This document shows, in pieces, positions 7,020 through 47,584 of a stretch of DNA of 64,000 nucleotides. The notes below the pieces were generated by a model, which saw only the letters and a program-made list of their open reading frames with translations, did not search any database and was not told where the DNA came from. Each line of letters starts with the position of its first letter. The stretch's first letter is position 1. Origin of the DNA: Phallus indusiatus. Lineage: Eukaryota; Basidiomycota; Agaricomycetes; Phallales; Phallaceae. The stretch covers positions 62,001 to 126,000 of the forward strand of contig JAQFWX010000048.1 of the NCBI GenBank assembly GCA_027605045.1. The letters are read 5' to 3'. A program made the translations under genes and the position numbers.

Positions 7020-7235
7020 TGATGGATGGCAAATAGTGGAGCTTTCAGTAGATAGGAAAAAGAAATGAACATGATAGTCATACCTTTCAGAGCCGCTGCA
7101 ATCTTAGCTGTTTCTGGTGTAGATGAAAGGCCTATAGAACCAATTATTTCTTTTTAAAAAATCTAAACAATAGATCCTTACATAGAGCACATAGTCCCCA
7201 TATCACACCATATGAACTATAGGAGAAAGAGGTCG

Positions 7236-7634
7236 TGTCAGGGTACACTACCGCGTCCCCTCATTTTTCCTTATTTATTATCATCGGTATATATTCCCCT
7301 CTATTTTATTTATATTTCACATATATTATTTCCATCCTCCGTTTGCTCCCCCTGTCTCTATTCCACTTTCTCTACTTGCGCGCGTCGCGTGCTCGTACCC
7401 GGCGTGACGCCTACGGCGTCACGTCGCTTATGTTCGGTTCGGGCGTCTGGCACTTAGCTGTGTCAGGGCTGCACGCCGCGCTATCGTTTTTCATGTATAT
7501 AGTCGCAGTCCCTAGAGTGAGGGTCCCTAAACTTGTTCTCTTAGGATCCCCTCCCTCTAGGTGAGTAGTTAGTTCTCCCCAATATATTTATCTTAGGATC
7601 CCCTCCCTCTAGTGTGAGCTGAGTAGCCCTAACA
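7236..7634 (+). mobile_element. Solo LTR family A, copy A2
   Basis: 399 bp, TGTCAGGG to CCCTAACA, with TSD GGTCG (7231-7235 and 7635-7639). It contains the 8-bp hairpin GTGACGCC-TAC-GGCGTCAC at 7404-7422. Confidence 0.9.
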
Positions 7635-8729
7635 GGTCGCGTAGCCCACATAGAGTGCTGGAGACCGTGTAGCACACATAGAAAGCAGACTATGAGAGGT
7701 CTATGAAGCGCCGATGCAGTGCTATGCATACTATGTCACACTATGTGACATCCAAGGCCTGCTATGTGGCACATCATAATCGGGGGGAGGACTATGCGTC
7801 TAGGGGTTCTATCTTATCTATATAATTCACCATATTTTTCTTCAATCTTCCTGATGTTAGTAAAATGCTCTGCTCAAATTGTATATAAAAAGACATCGTT
7901 TTCGACACAGAATATCATCTCATTATCCCTTATTTTACCCTCTAAAATGTTCCTCTTTGCGAAAAGCTTCTCTTTATTATCAAACTACCCTATAATCTCT
8001 ATCCTACACACTACACTGGTTCCCTCTCTGTCTCTGCCTACTCCTGAGACACGCTCTTCAATATACATAGATTGTCCGTGTACTTGGATAGCTCTTACCT
8101 TGCAAGGTATTTGGTTGAACAAGGTGTCTATCACTGGCACGCCGAGCTGATCCTATGATCTTTTGAAAAAGTGAAAGGGGAAAATATTGGATTATAAGAT
8201 ATAAATGTAGGGTAGAAATAGACGTTATAGATCGTAAATTTGACGTTAACACGATACAACACGGCACACACAATACAGCACGACACAGCACAAAATGGGT
8301 GGAGGACAAAAGCTCAAGTCTATTATGTAATCTACTGAATACATCATATAGCCCGAACTACTAAAATCCAACAGAAAATACACTGGGATGGACCCCACCG
8401 TGGAGGGCATAAACATCGATCCCAGTAAGGATCATCGGGAATTCGCCTCAGTCCCTACATGCCCGGAGGGGAAAAGTGCGATTTTATGGGTGTTTTGGTC
8501 ACCTTGTAAAATGCTACTGTTTCCGTGACGAAATCGTAGTTTATTTAGTGGTATTTTAGTACTAGAGGCGCCCAGGGTCGCAGAGCCCTTGCATGTAGCA
8601 CTGGATAAGTGTCATAACTCCTCAAACTCAACCAAACATACATAGACACTTAACCCCATACACAAATATTCAATTCATTCCAATTATCTATTTCGTTACA
8701 CTTAGTCAATTACGCAGACACATATTTCC
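7635..8729. other. Non-coding stretch, nothing recognised
   Basis: The start is rich in CTATG/CATAG words. About 8140-8460 shows patchy similarity to 62620-62740 (shared words around ACATCGATCC and GGATCATCGG/GCACCATCGG). I see no gene. Confidence 0.4.
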
Positions 8730-36811: not shown

Positions 36812-37309
36812 TGTAATGGATCCACCACATGCGGTGGATTGAGTATATGCCACTTAGGCATATGCAGAGGGCGAAGCCCTCTGCAGTAATTACTATTATT
36901 ACTTCTAATAATAGAGGCACTTAACGCCTCTGGCTCGCCATGACGCGGCGAGCCATTATGTAATAACTGTACATTAGTAGTAGCTACGTGCGTGCTGATT
37001 CAGCATGCTGTCACGCGCCGTGTTCCGGGCGTCTGGGAGGAAGTCCGGGAAGTCCGGACTACGGAACAGAAGGGACTTGGCTTCAGCTTATGTGCTGCGC
37101 CGACTCAATCGACCCTGGATATCCCTTAATTTCGGACTAGAAGTCCGAGACAGCTCGGACGTAGTCCGGGCAGGTCCGGACAAGTACTGGGAGTGGACTT
37201 TAAGCGAGATAGATAAGAGAAGATTTGATTATAAAGAGATTAACTGGGGCTAGACTTAAAATAGACTTGAATACGACTTGATATTCAGACTGGGGAGCCC
37301 CAGACGAAG

Positions 37310-37610
37310 TGTAACGGATTTGGGATATAGGAATGGGCCCCCCTGGGGCCCATTAATGGCCTAGTGCCCATGCAGTGCCTTTGGCACTGCAGCAGTAGTA
37401 TTTGCGCGTCACAGCGTGACGCTTAAGCGCCCGTCACACCCTTACAGCGGTGTGACTAGTAGTTACATTAGTTAATCTTAATTTTACCACTACTACTGCA
37501 TGTAATTCCCTATTAGCCTAATTGAGCAATAGACAGGAATTCTGTGCACTTGTGGGAAAATAAGAAAACCCTTTATCAGGCCCCTCTGTGGTCTGATAAA
37601 AACTGTTACA
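37310..37610 (+). repeat. 5' LTR of element E
   Basis: Hairpins in order: GGGCCCC/GGGGCCC, TGCAGTGCC/GGCACTGCA, GCGTCAC/GTGACGC, GTCACACC/GGTGTGAC, ATTCC+CTATT/AATAG+GGAAT and TTATCAGGCC/GGTCTGATAA. Confidence 0.9.
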
Positions 37611-37659
37611 TCTTTTTGCACAGCTCCATCCACAGATAGTGGAGCTATTGCCAAACCCT

Positions 37660-38673
37660 ATGTCTGTAGCCACAGAGCTGTATTACTACAAGCTCAAAGC
37701 TTTGGGCAATGTCCTTAGCACTTTCCAGAAGCTGGAAAGAACCCATACTGACTCTAAAAGAGTCAGATACACTGCCAGTTTGGCAGACCAGCTTGAGGAG
37801 CTGGATGATCTCCTCATCCCTGCTGCAGCCAGCAGGGATCCATTTAAGGATTGTGTCCTTTCAAGGACACTTCATATCAGCAGTTTTACAGCTGATTTTA
37901 CAACTGTACTATTGGGTCAGTTGAGACCATCTTTCTTTGAAAGATGGGGTATGAGATGGCCTTCTGACAGCCACTCCTCTGTCTGTACCAGACAGAAACT
38001 CATTGATAAGCTTGTTCTTATCAGTAAAATCATCCTTAGTGATGAAAAGACTGGTTTGGAGTTCCTCCCAGTCCTTAGAGCCAGCTGGGGAGATCCTGCT
38101 TCATGGGCTCCTCCTGCCCCTCTACCTGCCCCTCCTGGAGGCATGGAAGGTTCCCAGGCTACCTTAGCCTGTAGTTCCATCACTGTTAGTGATGTAAAAG
38201 CTGGAAAAGAGGTCCCTAGCCCTCTCCCAGCTCCCCAGGCAGCTCCAGAGGTACCCACTCCTCCTGCCTGTCCCCCTGCTCCTCCTGAGGACAGGAAAGC
38301 TTCTGGGCTTATCCCAGATCATCTTCCTATACTCCAAAAGGAAGATAAACAAGCTGAGGAACTTCCCAGTCCCCCAGCAATGTTGCCTGAGGCTATGGAG
38401 ACAGGTGCTCCTCCTGCCTCAGTCCCACCTGTCTTTGCAGACAGGAAAAAGTTAAATAGCTGTTTGGCTATTTTACCAGGGGAAGAGTCACATGGGAAAC
38501 CAAGTGATTCATTCATTTTTTCATCCAATTCCCTTGGATCTTTTTTCCTTCCTTCAGCTCCAAGCAGAAGGAGCACCTCTGCCTCCCAGAGGTGCACAGG
38601 GGTCAGATTTCCTGACTCCAGATCATCCAGTAGTCCTAACAGACTCTCCAAGGATCTTTTTAGAGTTCCTTGA
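37660..38673 (+). CDS. Element E single ORF, Pro-rich C-terminus, unknown
   Basis: ATG 37660 gives 337 aa. Residues 1-145 look globular and helical (TELYYYKLKALGNVLSTFQK, LADQLEELDDLLIP, RPSFFERWGMRW, KLIDKLVLISKIIL). The rest is Pro/Ala/Ser-rich with repeated PAPP and PSPP. No protease, RT or integrase motif and no zinc knuckle is seen. By position it could be a gag-type protein, but no gag signature is present. The coding sequence is also the hairpin array, so codons must satisfy both. The frame is open across the full length. Confidence 0.55.
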   Translation: MSVATELYYYKLKALGNVLSTFQKLERTHTDSKRVRYTASLADQLEELDDLLIPAAASRDPFKDCVLSRTLHISSFTADFTTVLLGQLRPSFFERWGMRWPSDSHSSVCTRQKLIDKLVLISKIILSDEKTGLEFLPVLRASWGDPASWAPPAPLPAPPGGMEGSQATLACSSITVSDVKAGKEVPSPLPAPQAAPEVPTPPACPPAPPEDRKASGLIPDHLPILQKEDKQAEELPSPPAMLPEAMETGAPPASVPPVFADRKKLNSCLAILPGEESHGKPSDSFIFSSNSLGSFFLPSAPSRRSTSASQRCTGVRFPDSRSSSSPNRLSKDLFRVP

Positions 38674-38985
38674 ACACTGACAGAGTGGATAATTCTGTCA
38701 GTCTGCTGCCATGCTCCCAGTGATTTATCTCAGTCATTTTTGGGCTACAGTAGATCTTTTACTGGACTTAAATGGTCCAGTACATTCCCTCATCATCACC
38801 TGATGAGTTTTATTTATTTTTATTTTGTCCTTCCTTCCCCATTTCCATTCCTTATTCCCCCCTCCCTATTTGCGCTTTTGCGCGTCACGCGTCACGCGTG
38901 ACTGTCACGTTACGCGCCGCGTGACAATCCCTTTTCTCCTGCCTTTTCTTCAGTTTGACTTGGTTCCCAAGTCAGCTGGGGAAGA

Positions 38986-39286
38986 TGTAACGGATTTGGG
39001 ATATAGGAATGGGCCCCCCTGGGGCCCATTAATGGCCTAGTGCCCATGCAGTGCCTTTGGCACTGCAGCAGTAGTATTTGCGCGTCACAGCGTGACGCTT
39101 AAGCGCCCGTCACACCCTTACAGCGGTGTGACTAGTAGTTACATTAGTTAATCTTAATTTTACCACTACTACTGCATGTAATTCCCTATTAGCCTAATTG
39201 AGCAATAGACAGGAATTCTGTGCACTTGTGGGAAAATAAGAAAACCCTTTATCAGACCCCCCTGTGGTCTGATAAGAACTGTTACA
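38986..39286 (+). repeat. 3' LTR of element E
   Basis: Same as the 5' LTR except for changes near the end; here the last stem is a perfect 10 bp (TTATCAGACC/GGTCTGATAA). Confidence 0.9.
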
Positions 39287-39761
39287 CGAAGTCTGGGGGG
39301 TTTAAATACAAAAAACTAGACTACTAGAACTAAAGGAGATATAACTAAAAGGAGACTAGTTGCACAGCACTAGAAACATATCTGGCACTTGCTTTCTAAT
39401 GCTCCGGACAGAATGTCCCCATAAGGAAATGTCCTAGTCCGGACAAAGTCCGGACCTCGGACTTACTGGACGTGGACAGAATAACAGACTACGCACTGTT
39501 GGACAAGTACTGACGCTCGGACTTGGCAGATATACTAAATATGGACGGGGTTTGGGTGCCGGACCTCGGAGAGGTCCGGATTAGGATTGGGTGGCACGAG
39601 GGTCGTGACACATGCGCACTTTGTTTTACACCATAAAAATACAGCACCCTTGGTCTGTTATTCTTGGTGTGAGACTACAGCGTGATATAAACTGTGTACC
39701 GTCCGCAGTACACTATAAAAGTAACGAAATGTTACATGAGGGTTGTGACAAGTTCGCAGAA

Positions 39762-40357
39762 ATGGATGCCCGCATGGCAAGACAAGAATCCCAGGCCTTG
39801 CAGATGATTGAGGTGCTACGGAGCATCCAAGATGCGGCTAGAGCTGCTCCAGCCCAAAACCCCCCTGCTGACAACGTGCCCTCGCCTGGACAACCACCGG
39901 CTCCTGAGCATCAAGCCAGTTCGCGTTCTTCCCAAAATACCCAACCTGCTGTACCTCCTTTGTTCGACGGAGATCGCTCCAAGGGTTGCGCCTTTTGGAA
40001 CACCATCGAGTTCTACATGAGTATATGCAGTCATGATTTTGACACTGATGAACTCAAGATCGGCTGGGCGATGTCGTACATGAACGAAGGCTGCGCCCTT
40101 ACCTTCAGTGAATCTATGCTGAAAAAATATCAAAGAGGAGAGAAGCCCTTCGCTGACTGGGACATTTCGGGAAAGATTCAAGACTGATTTCTTTCCACAA
40201 TCCAAGCAAGAGGATGCTATCAACACCCTCTATTCCAACTGCTACATCCAAGGCAACAGGACGGTAGAAGAGTATGTGGACACCTTCCACATACTCATTG
40301 AGCATACTGGCTTTACAGAAGGACTTGCCATTAACACGTACTTTCGTAACAGCTTAG
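39762..40357 (+). pseudogene. Ty3-type gag fragment of element F
   Basis: ATG 39762 starts a coiled segment (ARMARQESQALQMIEVLRSI), then a Pro-rich linker and a retrotransposon Gag domain (PPLFDGDRSKGCAFWNTIEFYM, DELKIGWAMSYMNEGCALTF, RTVEEYVDTFHILIEHTGF). At about 40163 the frame must change by one base to go from FADWD to FRERFKTDFFPQ. The domain is cut after NTYFRNSL by LTR C3. Confidence 0.75.
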
Positions 40358-41120: not shown

Positions 41121-41500
41121 TAAGGCTGTTCACGGGTTATGACCCTCGGGTTTGGGTACCTGTTTTCAGGTACCCTTACCTCAGAGAAGTCATACCTGCA
41201 CCCTTACAGGTATTGCTCACAGGTACCTGTGGTATATACAGTCACACCCGCACCCTAGGGTTTTTTACTCATTTACCTGGGTGGTGACCCGGGGTTTACA
41301 GGGTACCTGGGTACCCTTGATAATCCTCGGGTACCCATGAAGGTACCTGGGTACCTACTGCTCACTTTTAATCTCAGACACTCGGGTACCCAGGTACCTG
41401 CTACTCACCTGAATCTGCGAAACTGACTGTGATACCCGGGTACCTGCTAAATACCTGCAACAGAAACAAATAGGTACCCGGGTACCTGAGAGGGTACTGG
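41121..41500. repeat. Left subterminal GGTACC-word cluster of the hAT element
   Basis: More than 15 copies of GGTACC/GGGTACC in both orientations; a matching cluster lies at 47800-48062. Subterminal repeats of this kind are usual transposase-binding sites of hAT elements. Confidence 0.7.
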
Positions 41501-41700
41501 TGTCACAAAAAGGTGATACCAGCCAGAGTTGAACCCACGGAGGACAATCAACAGTCATATACACTATACCAGCTGCACTATCACACAACCACACCATTTG
41601 CTCAAAGACGGCCCTCTCATACATAAAGTCTGAATGTATACATATAACATGGTAAAGGAAAATTAAAAGTACCTAAAATACATGGTACATTAACCTGTTG

Positions 41701-43319
41701 CTATTCTATGAAACAAGACTTCTCTAGCCACCAAATCATATAACCTTTCATACTTCGTTTGATACCTTGATTTTCTAATGCAGCAGAGAGGAACTCAACC
41801 TGCTTAAAATGCAATTCCATGAGTAAACAAACACGGAAATATACTTTCCGCAGGTGATCAATATACTCTTGATACCCATGATCCCCCCCTAAGACCTCAT
41901 TAGATAGGTGCTGGAGGTTGACCACTTTGACAAACAGGTGGCGCACTGAGTCCACAGCATGATGGACGGCAGGAATCTGGTGGATCCGGAATTCTTGATG
42001 GCGCACAAGGTCATCAATGCATTTTGACGACATATCAGAAGCTTCAGCATAATACTGGCGGGCGATGTTGACAAATGATTGTTGGTCAGCTGTAAGGCTC
42101 TCAACGGGTTGGATCCGCGGGTACGGGTACCCGTACCCGCGGGTCAGTGTCAAAAATTTGGGTATCCTCGACCTGACCCGGGTTTTGACCTGCGGGTCAC
42201 GTGACAACCTGCGGGTAGGCAGGTCAACCTGTGACAACAGGTAATCTGCAGGTACCTGTGTGTTACCTGCAGGTAATGTCACGTGTGACTAGATGTTACT
42301 AGATTAAGTTATTAAGCGAGATGGGCGCTTATTTAAGCGCCCAACTTATCTTGTAGAGAATTAAAAATATTGTTGACATATTTTTTTATTTCCATTTTAA
42401 GTAAGATTTGAGCTCTCTAGAGCCAAAATAAAAAAAAAATCACGACAAACACCACTCGAAAATCACCCACCTGTCACTATGTCTTATAGGGCGGGTTAGC
42501 ACGGGTACCCGTGGTTTCGAAAATGGCTACCTGTACCCGACCCGGGTCAATTAGGCGCCGGGTACCTGTGTGACGGGTACCCGTGACCTGCGGGTACGGA
42601 TACAGGTACCTGCGGGTTAAACCTGTGCGACCTCTAACCCGTTGAGAGCCTTAGTCAGCTGCAATGCTACACCCTCATTCTAATCCTGAATTATAACTGG
42701 GGCTGGAACTGGACACGTCACTTGCACAATCAGAATCTTCTGATGAATCGGAATATGTTGATTCGGAAACCTGGTAGTCCCCATCATCGGACTCGCTGCA
42801 TGAGCTTGGGTCGAGCGGTAACCCGTACTCCTTGCATAGACGATCAAAAGGGCAGGGGACGATCCTACATATGTTAGGGTTGCGGAGGGATAAAATAATG
42901 GACGATACATACATAGTACCAAGTTCTTCCGGGCCTTGTATGTTACAGGGCTTATCTTGTGAGTACATCGTTTTCATCAGTGCACCCATTCCGGAAAGAG
43001 AGAGACCATCAGTCGAATTTGCAGTGCCAGAAGACAGAGAAGTACTAAAGTAATGGAATCCAATCTGTAAGTGACAGCAACTACAAAAAATATACCTTAA
43101 GAAAGTGAAGATGGACCTACGTATTGACTTTGCTTAGAAGATTCCGGCTTGCATTCTGGCGATACTTGTGGCGATTCCTGTTGTTGGTAATTGGTCATAA
43201 ATTTTCAGCTTTCAAAGTAAAAGTAATTCGAGAATGACTTACTTGTGATAGCAGCGATGCTTTGCTTCCAATGTCCGTCGCCGGCGTTCGTCATCATCCA
43301 CAAGCCTAGGGCCCCCCAT
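41701..43319 (-). CDS. Second gene of the hAT element, unknown function
   Basis: Probable exons: 43319-43243 (MGGPRLVDDDERRRR..., donor GTAAGT), about 43188-43121 (basic, NRHKYRQNASRN), about 43036-42700 (GLSLSGMGALMKTMYSQDK then PNICRIVPCPFDRLCKEYGLPLDP and a Ser/Asp-rich acidic run) and 42084-41701 (SFVNIARQYYAEASDMSSKCIDDL..., helical). The basic arginine-rich start suggests DNA or RNA binding. I recognise no named domain. The hAT MITE at 42093-42653 sits at the last intron/exon border. Exon joins are my reading of GT/AG borders and are tentative. Confidence 0.45.
42093..42653. mobile_element. 561-bp hAT MITE nested in the hAT element
   Basis: Ends TAAGGCTCTCAACGGGTT/inverse and 8-bp TSD GTCAGCTG (42085-42092 and 42654-42661). 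It has the same GGTACC-type subterminal words as its host, so the same transposase family could move it. Confidence 0.9.
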
Positions 43320-46545: not shown

Positions 46546-47584
46546 TGTCAGGGTACGCTACCGCGTCCCTTCATTTTCCTATTTATTATCGTCAGTATAT
46601 ATTTATTTCTATTCCATTTACATTTCCCGTCCATCACCTTCACCTTCCGTTTATTTGTTCTGTCTCTATTTCACTTTCTCTACTCGCGCGTGTTGCGCGC
46701 TCGCACCCGGTGTGATGCCCGTGACATCACGTCACTTAGGTTCGGTTCGGGCGCCTAGCACTTAGCTGTGTCAGGGCCGCATGCCGTGTTATCGTTTTTC
46801 ATGTATATAGTCGTTGTCCCTAGAGTGAGGGTCCCTAAGCTTGTTCTCTTAGAATCCCCTCCCTCTAGGTGAGTAGTTAGTATTTCCCCAATATATTAGC
46901 TTAGGATCCCTGTCAAGGTCCGAGTCTTCGGATGAGTTCGAGAGGTTCGAGAACGAGTTCGAGATCGATGAGGAACTTGGCTTCAACGTATGTGTTGCGC
47001 CCGCTCCGGAAGGTCTGAGTTGTTCCTCGATTTGATTCGGTAACGACAAGTACTCACGACAATGATGTCCGACCACGATGACAATAACTTCGTCGGCGCA
47101 GACGACGAAGTTCGAGATCGAAGAAGAAGTTCGAGACGACTTCGAAGAAGTCGTCGAGCAAGAATCAGATAAAGAGAATATATTGAATCGAACCAAAGTT
47201 CGATTTCAAGACGACTCTAACTATGTATTTTACATGGGTTTATATACATATTCTAGAGTCAGGGTCGAAGACAAAGAAATACAAGTTAGGAAAGTATTTC
47301 TTGCTTACATAATCAAACTCATGGAAAACATGAGTTTTCGCTAACTAAGAGATTAAACAAAGGGAAATAATACGACGTCATGAGAACCTCTTATATAAGT
47401 CGTTCTAGAATAGATCGTTAGTCTAGACGCTAGTCTAGACTCGATCTGTTCGAGTGTAGTTCGGGTTCGGTTCGTCGAAGAGGTTCGGTTGTAAATAGTT
47501 CGTCGGAAAACGTATTGGAATCGAAGTCATGATTTCGGATCATGACAATCCCCTCCCTCTAGCTTGAGCTGAGTAGCCCTAACA
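46546..47584 (+). mobile_element. Solo LTR family A, copy A9, hosting LTR B2
   Basis: TSD ATCTC (46541-46545 and 47585-47589). Its own length is about 397 bp after removing 46911-47552. It inserted in the first coding exon of the hAT transposase. Confidence 0.9.
46911..47547. mobile_element. Solo LTR family B, copy B2, innermost level
   Basis: 637 bp from TGTCAAGGTCCG to GGATCATGACA with TSD ATCCC (46906-46910 and 47548-47552) inside the 21-bp box of LTR A9. A TATA-like stretch on its minus strand (ATGTATATAAACCC, about 47238-47252) may be the LTR promoter. Confidence 0.85.

Follow-up and report, generated by a model that had tools for sequence, protein, structure and literature searches.

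Ordered RNA structure that extends over a whole genome is known from RNA viruses, and its purpose is debated. In genome-scale ordered structure (GORS), as characterized in the sections of PMC3950689 cited here, a genome-wide excess of folding arises from consecutive local stem-loops, with single pairings poorly conserved between relatives; the same sections describe weaker RIG-I and PKR responses to structured transcripts in vertebrate cells. The cited sections of PMC7642675 (2020) give a folding excess of 15% for SARS-CoV-2, a highest genome mean of 23.4% among the vertebrate RNA viruses analysed to then, and local peaks above 50%; the shuffling used there likewise keeps dinucleotides, yet differs from the procedure used here. 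For LTR retrotransposons, SHAPE data in the cited part of PMC11381356 depict Ty1 and Ty3 RNA as a mosaic in which up to 30% of the RNA (about 40% in HIV-1) is highly structured. Our search of the open literature, which covered titles and abstract openings and left most subscription journals and bioRxiv outside, returned no report of hairpin-tiled LTR retrotransposons. Known non-autonomous LTR elements include TRIM, SMART and TR-GAG.

Element E and its hairpin array

Element E lies at positions 37310-39286 of the window, by which we mean the whole 64,000-nucleotide stretch of Phallus indusiatus DNA analysed, and is a non-autonomous LTR element with a 1375-bp interior between 301-bp LTRs; all features given here are on the plus strand. 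Its 5' LTR (37310..37610, TGTAACGG...GTTACA) is a direct repeat with five perfect hairpins of at least 7 bp and shares 99% identity with the 3' LTR (38986..39286) over the 300 bp compared. A 5-bp target site duplication, CGAAG, was read from the sequence on the left (37305..37309) and on the right (39287-39291). The earlier note had placed the element at exactly these positions. A primer-binding region (37611..37630, TCTTTTTGCACAGC...; TCTTTTTTAACACC... in element F, described below) follows the 5' LTR, and a polypurine tract (38975..38985) that ends in GGGGAAGA, with GGGGAGGA as its F equivalent, abuts the 3' LTR. Among the 30 of 40 LTR matches that were read, all end in GTTACA, 29 start with TGTAAC and one with TGTAAT. 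E thus has the LTRs with inverted terminal bases, the target site duplication, the polypurine tract and the dispersed copies of an LTR retrotransposon. It does not qualify as autonomous through a reverse transcriptase (RT) and integrase of its own, since its sole long ORF has no Pfam domain at E<=1.

This ORF (37660..38673) encodes 337 aa from the first ATG, or 344 aa from a GTG at 37639. No homologue was found among 8000 candidates scored from a large protein set, and comparison with three of the eight ORF pieces of F showed no significant similarity. The N-terminal part of the protein is helical by low-confidence prediction and is followed by a proline-rich part; an AlphaFold model from a two-row alignment has a mean pLDDT of 42.9. 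With dN/dS values of 0.60, 0.18 and 0.52 against the copies C173, C139 and C1, respectively, the protein is moderately constrained. Imperfect repeats, 70-76% alike and spaced 150 bp apart, occur within the ORF at 38029-38303, and the C173 ORF carries about 50 additional residues in the matching region. Across the window, no known RNA family reached its gathering score and ARAGORN found no tRNA genes. Complements of the 30 nt behind the LTR were found in E (two of 7 nt, inside the LTR), in F (one of 9 nt) and in L018, an element with an E-type LTR (two of 6 nt). Their positions disagree among the three elements; we therefore rejected a self-primer reading and make no such claim.

Hairpins were counted as non-overlapping perfect stems of at least 6 bp with loops of 2-15 nt and compared with 60 dinucleotide shuffles per sequence. 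Whole E has 40 hairpins against 5.8+-2.0 in shuffles (maximum 10). In the interior array (37622..38974), whose perfect stems measure 6-10 bp, 30 hairpins compare with 4.3+-1.6 in shuffles (maximum 10); the figures are 21 against 1.3 at 7 bp or more and 12 against 0.2 at 8 bp or more. The stretch 3' of the ORF holds six against 0.4, and a single LTR five against 0.9 (at least 6 bp in both cases). Codon-preserving shuffles, which leave the protein and its codon usage unchanged (200 shuffles for the counts and 40 for the energy), gave 4.9+-2.1 hairpins for the ORF (maximum 11) compared with 23 observed, and a folding energy z of -11.5; 46% of the ORF, counted from the GTG, lies within perfect hairpins of at least 6 bp. 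The earlier note's chance estimate of 4-5 for the interior agrees with the shuffled value, and its hand counts of about 40 hairpins in all and 28 of at least 6 bp become 35 (at least 5 bp) and 30 on recounting. The array that it followed through LTR, ORF and post-ORF stretch exceeds both dinucleotide and codon-preserving shuffles, neither of which ever reproduced a similar density. Its view of E as a single odd family did not hold: the tiling is not unique, and E belongs, as a non-autonomous element, to a wider group of hairpin-tiled elements that includes the 9-kb chromovirus F.

Copies of E were sought in the genome assembly (67.2 Mb, 206 contigs) through its LTR. All 40 candidates scored, out of 80, match at 96-100% identity, and the copy numbers are therefore lower bounds. 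At least five copies are full-length: E itself, C139, C1, C122 and C173. The interiors of C139, C1 and C122 are 98-99% identical to that of E, and C173 combines LTRs 98% alike with a diverged interior, its ORF sharing 51% protein identity and 66% nucleotide identity (843 aligned sites) with that of E. The C173 ORF nevertheless contains 26 hairpins, against 4.4+-1.8 under codon-preserving shuffles. When 134 ungapped stem pairs of E were traced to C173, 76 were unchanged, 13 had changed on both sides yet remained paired, 13 had become G.T, 8 A.C, and 24 were broken; another 24 pairs were gapped. Examples of paired change are CTTTCCAG..CTGGAAAG in E against CTTTTCAG..CTGAAAAG in C173, and CCTGTCT..AGACAGG against CCTGTCC..GGACAGG. 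The design noted earlier in one copy is accordingly kept in the others, including this diverged one. Two further loci, L018 (C34:499277) and L019 (C14:77134), combine an E-type LTR (97%) with a different interior, which shows no tiling in the 1.5 kb read (9 hairpins against 4.7 for LTR plus interior) and has the primer-binding region TCTCTTTTCC. The two differ at one of 1800 positions and have the same 8 nt before the LTR; one of them is therefore probably a duplicated segment.

The surroundings of E (36812-39737) consist of nested insertions, with E inside an H LTR and the H LTR inside an F-type LTR. The first part of the F-type LTR (36812..37008, TGTAATGGATCC..., with hairpins) is interrupted by H and resumes at 39611-39737. 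The H LTR, of about 610-620 bp (TGTCACG...CGTGACA), is split at the E insertion site into a 5' half (37009..37309) and a 3' half (39287-39610). In family H, represented by L061 and L062 (C180), the LTRs are enriched in hairpins (6 against 1.3), and two interior pieces show little excess (4 against 2.5 and 7 against 4.4 at 6 bp or more; 1 against 0.6 and 5 against 1.2 at 7 bp or more). Beyond a gag-like ORF at 39612-40187 lies a hairpin island (41154-42744), many of whose hairpins have a recurring GGTACC core (GGGTACCTG..CAGGTACCC and similar). A second, unassigned hairpin island lies at 47086-47546 and has stems of 7-10 bp. The window also carries a KDZ-associated CxC6 domain.

The chromovirus F and the gradient among its relatives

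Copies of the F-type LTR occur elsewhere in the genome in pairs about 8.9 kb apart, and one such element was read (L078, here F). Its LTRs, of 319 bp, are identical over the 261 bp compared. Pfam matches comprise zf-CCHC, Retrotrans_gag (at cut-off), RVP_2, RVT_1, Integrase_H2C2 and rve (under cut-off), with SH3_Tf2-1 and Chromo (just under cut-off); the F pieces scanned gave no Pfam match for RNase H. F therefore has Gag, protease, RT and integrase in the order of a chromovirus, together with a chromodomain, and we take its group to be Tf1/sushi-like, within Metaviridae. The frames of this copy are interrupted, while further copies of the RT are found in open frames reaching about 2000 aa. 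Named RT relatives among the best 120 of 637 matches belong to the genera Trametes, Lyophyllum, Ceratobasidium, Pisolithus, Sparassis and Armillaria, among them Trametes versicolor and Lyophyllum shimeji, with protein identities of up to about 62%, and one single-sequence query of IMG/VR with the F RT returned no relatives. F and E have in common their LTR terminal words, a primer-binding site starting with TCTTTTT and similar polypurine tracts (GGGGAGGA in F). E, a non-autonomous LTR retrotransposon, is probably moved by an F-type Ty3/gypsy chromovirus; its use of F-type enzymes is suggested by the matching LTR ends, primer-binding start and polypurine tract.

The 9.2-kb F locus contains 164 hairpins (loops 3-15) against 22.4+-4.4 expected, and 65 stems of at least 8 bp against 1.2. 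All eight ORF pieces, which partly overlap, exceed the largest of 60 codon shuffles. The most hairpin-rich piece (27 against 4.6 in codon shuffles) is a 356-codon open frame, which lies behind the chromodomain at F positions 7197-8264 and has no Pfam match.

Predicted folding was strong throughout. In 200-nt windows, z was below -2 in 45 of 45 for F (mean -5.6), 8 of 9 for E and 9 of 9 for C173, compared with mean values of -0.84 and -0.28 for a gypsy element and an ORF taken as controls from the window. The mean folding excess, computed on 350-nt fragments against dinucleotide shuffles, was 40.2% for F (30 fragments), 41.2% for E (6), 45.0% for C173 (6) and 19.0% for the related element G (17). 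Controls gave 8.6% (15 fragments), 1.0% (13) and 3.5% (4), and phage MS2, by the same method, 28.0%.

In the search for RTs, 125 of the 465 candidates were scored and gave 127 matching places; 13 RT pieces of the group and one control were compared, and chance expectation in these pieces is about 1.4 to 2.6 hairpins. Four pieces of the F clade have 15-16 hairpins and a folding excess of 46-51%. Two pieces of the sister clade G (79-82% protein identity) have 7-8 hairpins and 11-20%, and six of a deeper clade (41-46%) have 0-6 and -3 to 15%. The remaining piece, L089 (63%), has five hairpins and 9% excess; it contains stops and has a long branch, and its placement in the tree is unsure. The RT of the control gypsy, an unrelated element of the window, (930 nt) resembles that of G, with 8 hairpins against 2.8 and an excess of 17%, which falls to 8.6% over the whole 4.8 kb of that element. 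Over longer stretches, G has 62 hairpins against 10.3 in 5.4 kb, and the control gypsy 8 against 4.5 and 15 against 6.8.

Stem lengths are bounded in both clades. With loops of 3-12 nt, stems of exactly 6, 7, 8, 9, 10 and 11 bp number 57, 42, 43, 13, 7 and 1 in F, against 13.7, 3.2, 1.1, 0.4, 0.1 and 0.0 expected, so that numbers are sustained to 8 bp and drop at 9-10 bp. In G, 45, 16 and 2 stems of 6, 7 and 8 bp (6.5, 1.4 and 0.4 expected) mark a drop after 6-7 bp, and stems of at least 8 bp are only 2 against 0.8. The clade series and these counts therefore indicate that tiling is strongest in one clade and that the upper limit on stem length is not the same in F as in G.

Fate of the hairpins and candidate explanations

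The best joint explanation, to which we give a probability of roughly 45%, is that E and F carry genome-scale ordered structure under selection, perhaps shielding their RNA from silencing, and that E is moved by an F-type element. The whole transcript of either element, or its complement, would be kept folded into consecutive local hairpins of about 6-10 bp, with selection targeting folding in general and not particular hairpins. The folded molecule would be RNA, and the benefit would be that RNA silencing and nucleases of the host are kept away from it, the stems remaining too short to serve as Dicer substrates. The stems of E and F are below Dicer size; this, like the weaker RIG-I and PKR responses to structured transcripts in vertebrate cells, is compatible with evasion of silencing. 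Selection on folding in general would account for the turnover of hairpins, their bounded stem length, the rarity of second-position changes in stems and the lack of changes concentrated in one arm. Evidence for selection comes from the excess over shuffles, the tiling of diverged copies, the gradient along the RT tree and the retention of hairpins in four of seven comparisons.

Retention was assessed by placing the observed substitutions randomly, with base change and coding class kept and indels ignored, in 300 simulations. Hairpins of at least 6 bp outlive substitution better than under random placement from E to C139 (31 observed, 27.0 simulated; 5/300 reach the observed value), E to C1 (30 and 26.9; 8/300), F to the F-clade RT C184 (19 and 13.6; 2/300) and F to the G copy C142 (8 and 2.5; 0/300). 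The difference was not significant from E to C122 (30 and 28.7; 74/300), F to C151 (18 and 15.5; 39/300) or G C142 to C67 (7 and 6.5; 152/300). At 8 bp or more, none of the seven comparisons fell below 27/300, and the reverse E comparisons, run without coding classes, gave 30, 8 and 28 of 150. Between the RTs of F and G, where synonymous sites are saturated (pS 0.86), 10 of 54 F hairpins have a centre matching one in G. The expected number is 1.0, and 300 shifts gave at most 5. Some of these matching hairpins show paired changes, as in CAGTACG..CGTACTG and CAATACA..TGTATTG.

Several observations speak against selection. Retention is not significant in three of the seven comparisons, and one control gypsy RT piece is folded like that of G. 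Loops in the E interior are conserved at least as well as stems (variable sites: stem 7/480, loop 1/201, outside 29/695), which is at odds with a simple stem-only constraint. Stems in the F-clade RT change little less than the rest (two copies; stem 16/548, loop 12/232, elsewhere 34/1068). The excess of A.C over G.T mismatches in F, detailed below, is opposite to the expectation under selection for a stable sense RNA, and the two strands fold almost equally. In the E LTRs (30 of 40), by contrast, loops are the most variable, with 1.07 minor alleles per position compared with 0.20 in stems of at least 5 bp and 0.30 elsewhere.

We rank second, as a serious rival though less probable than selection, a mutational origin in which the lineage's reverse transcriptase folds back and copies one arm from the other, perfecting near-palindromes, so that protein selection would merely remove harmful hairpins. 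Tiling is alike in coding and non-coding parts, and E, with the LTR ends and primer-binding start of F and a similar polypurine tract, would use a related enzyme. Substitutions are clustered in two of three comparisons between near copies: close pairs number 7 against 2.5 expected for E and C139 (p=0.003) and 10 against 3.0 for E and C1 (reached in none of 5000 shuffles), with 2 against 0.5 for E and C122 (p=0.08). Certain hairpins were apparently made by such clusters in one step. In C139 only, two changes 3 nt apart create GCTGGG gaga CCCAGC, and five differences within 11 nt, which set E, C139 and C122 apart from C1, lengthen a stem from 5 to 8 bp; the C1 state at this cluster is nearly that of C173. 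An arm-copying, fold-back enzyme would produce clusters of this kind as well as the A.C excess, which would be G.T in the nascent minus strand, but recombination between copies could also yield the clusters. Between F and G, the two arms of a hairpin show no significant imbalance in their changes: the larger arm takes 78 of 110 changes in F hairpins (null 76.9, p=0.42) and 35 of 45 in G hairpins (null 32.0, p=0.10). The earlier note's suggestion of birth by repeated hairpin copying thus gains from the clusters between near copies and loses from the non-significant one-arm result. Nor are second codon positions in F stems hit more often than outside, as the RT differences between F and G show (5/87 against 21/181), although first positions are (22/90 against 22/176); by codon position 1-3, the differences amount to 24, 6 and 54% in stems and 12, 12 and 62% outside. 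Stems also stop at a length specific to F or G, lacking the long tail expected from copying. The two processes may act jointly, mutation supplying hairpins and selection keeping them.

Returning to selection on folding, a bolder version of it would have the lineage evolve a whole-genome hairpin armour as a counter-defence against Argonaute/RdRP silencing, with stems below Dicer length and escalating along the phylogeny, and with the parasite E, which encodes a protein of its own, carrying it too. The escalation would run from none or weak in deeper relatives through stems of 6-7 bp in G to 8-9 bp in F. We regard this fuller claim as rather unlikely.

Less likely again is packaging or compaction, in which the lineage's Gag would bind repeated hairpins and E would keep them for packaging by F-type particles. 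F does encode a CCHC zinc knuckle, tiling is common to E and F even though the E ORF is unlike the three of eight F pieces compared, and the control gypsy and the H interior, expected to use another Gag, are much less tiled. However, no common loop or stem sequence is evident by eye in the hairpin lists, about 20 hairpins per kilobase would hardly be needed for a packaging signal, and L018 and L019 combine an E-type LTR with an interior that is untiled as far as read.

The evidence on strand preference conflicts, and we see little chance that the molecule required to fold is the minus strand, whether single-stranded cDNA or antisense RNA. Such a need would fit the mismatches of interrupted F helices, which are A.C in 16 of 33 and G.T in 2 of 33, and the outer ends of the 164 F stems, where A.C:G.T is 46:19 (base composition predicts shares of 0.20 and 0.14), as A.C mismatches on the plus strand are G.T or G.U wobbles on the minus strand. 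Yet the asymmetry is weak at the outer ends in G (13:10), E (7:4) and C173 (9:5) and inconsistent between copies (8:13, 10:8, 2:4, 4:1, 38:31), and G-to-A drift on the plus strand would yield an identical pattern. The F strands fold almost equally, with a sense mean z (-5.6) slightly lower than the antisense (-5.0). Hairpin loops on the plus strand are A-rich in F (0.32) and G (L087; 0.42) and T-rich in E (37310-39286; 0.36) and C173 (L045; 0.33). Chance, base composition or codon usage as the source of the hairpins has virtually no standing, being contradicted by the dinucleotide and codon-preserving shuffles at the scales tested, even though other transposons of the genome show a mild excess (control gypsy pol, 15 against 6.8).

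E and F among known systems

GORS is the nearest concept, and E and F have the computational features that define it. Folding is in excess along the whole of F (45 of 45 windows with z below -2, mean excess 40%), and pairings turn over, with 10 of 54 F hairpins centred as in G and 44 not, G being the less dense. What differs is the host, an LTR retrotransposon, together with perfect stems of bounded length, the folding of both strands and a mean excess of 40-45%, compared with the top genome mean of 23.4% given in the cited sections of PMC7642675. Leviviruses such as MS2 similarly have densely folded coding sequence, but the 3.6 kb of MS2 hold 23 perfect stems of at least 6 bp against 9.3 expected, two of them of at least 8 bp, whereas the 9.2 kb of F hold 164 against 22, 65 of them of at least 8 bp. 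Ty1 and Ty3 genomic RNAs are likewise LTR-retrotransposon RNAs with structured regions; the cited part of PMC11381356 depicts them as mosaics, whereas F and E are predicted to be folded throughout.

As to element type, the domains of F are those of Ty3/gypsy chromoviruses, and E has the LTR ends and primer-binding start of F and a similar polypurine tract; F, G and E are nevertheless hairpin-tiled, whereas tiling is weak or absent in the window's control gypsy and in the deeper relatives. Like TRIM, SMART and TR-GAG elements, E is short, bears LTRs, lacks an RT, needs a partner and encodes one protein. It differs from them in that its protein matches nothing in Pfam, with no homologue among the candidates scored, and in that its sequence is tiled with hairpins. 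If the cause were mutational instead, E and F would reveal that a reverse transcriptase can introduce palindromes into its own genome. In summary, these elements carry into an LTR retrotransposon the ordered structure known from RNA viruses. Its mean level is higher here, it extends through coding sequence constrained by the protein, and a single genome contains graded relatives. Together these features make the question of why genomes fold throughout, including how the folding arises and what sets stem length, accessible to comparison.
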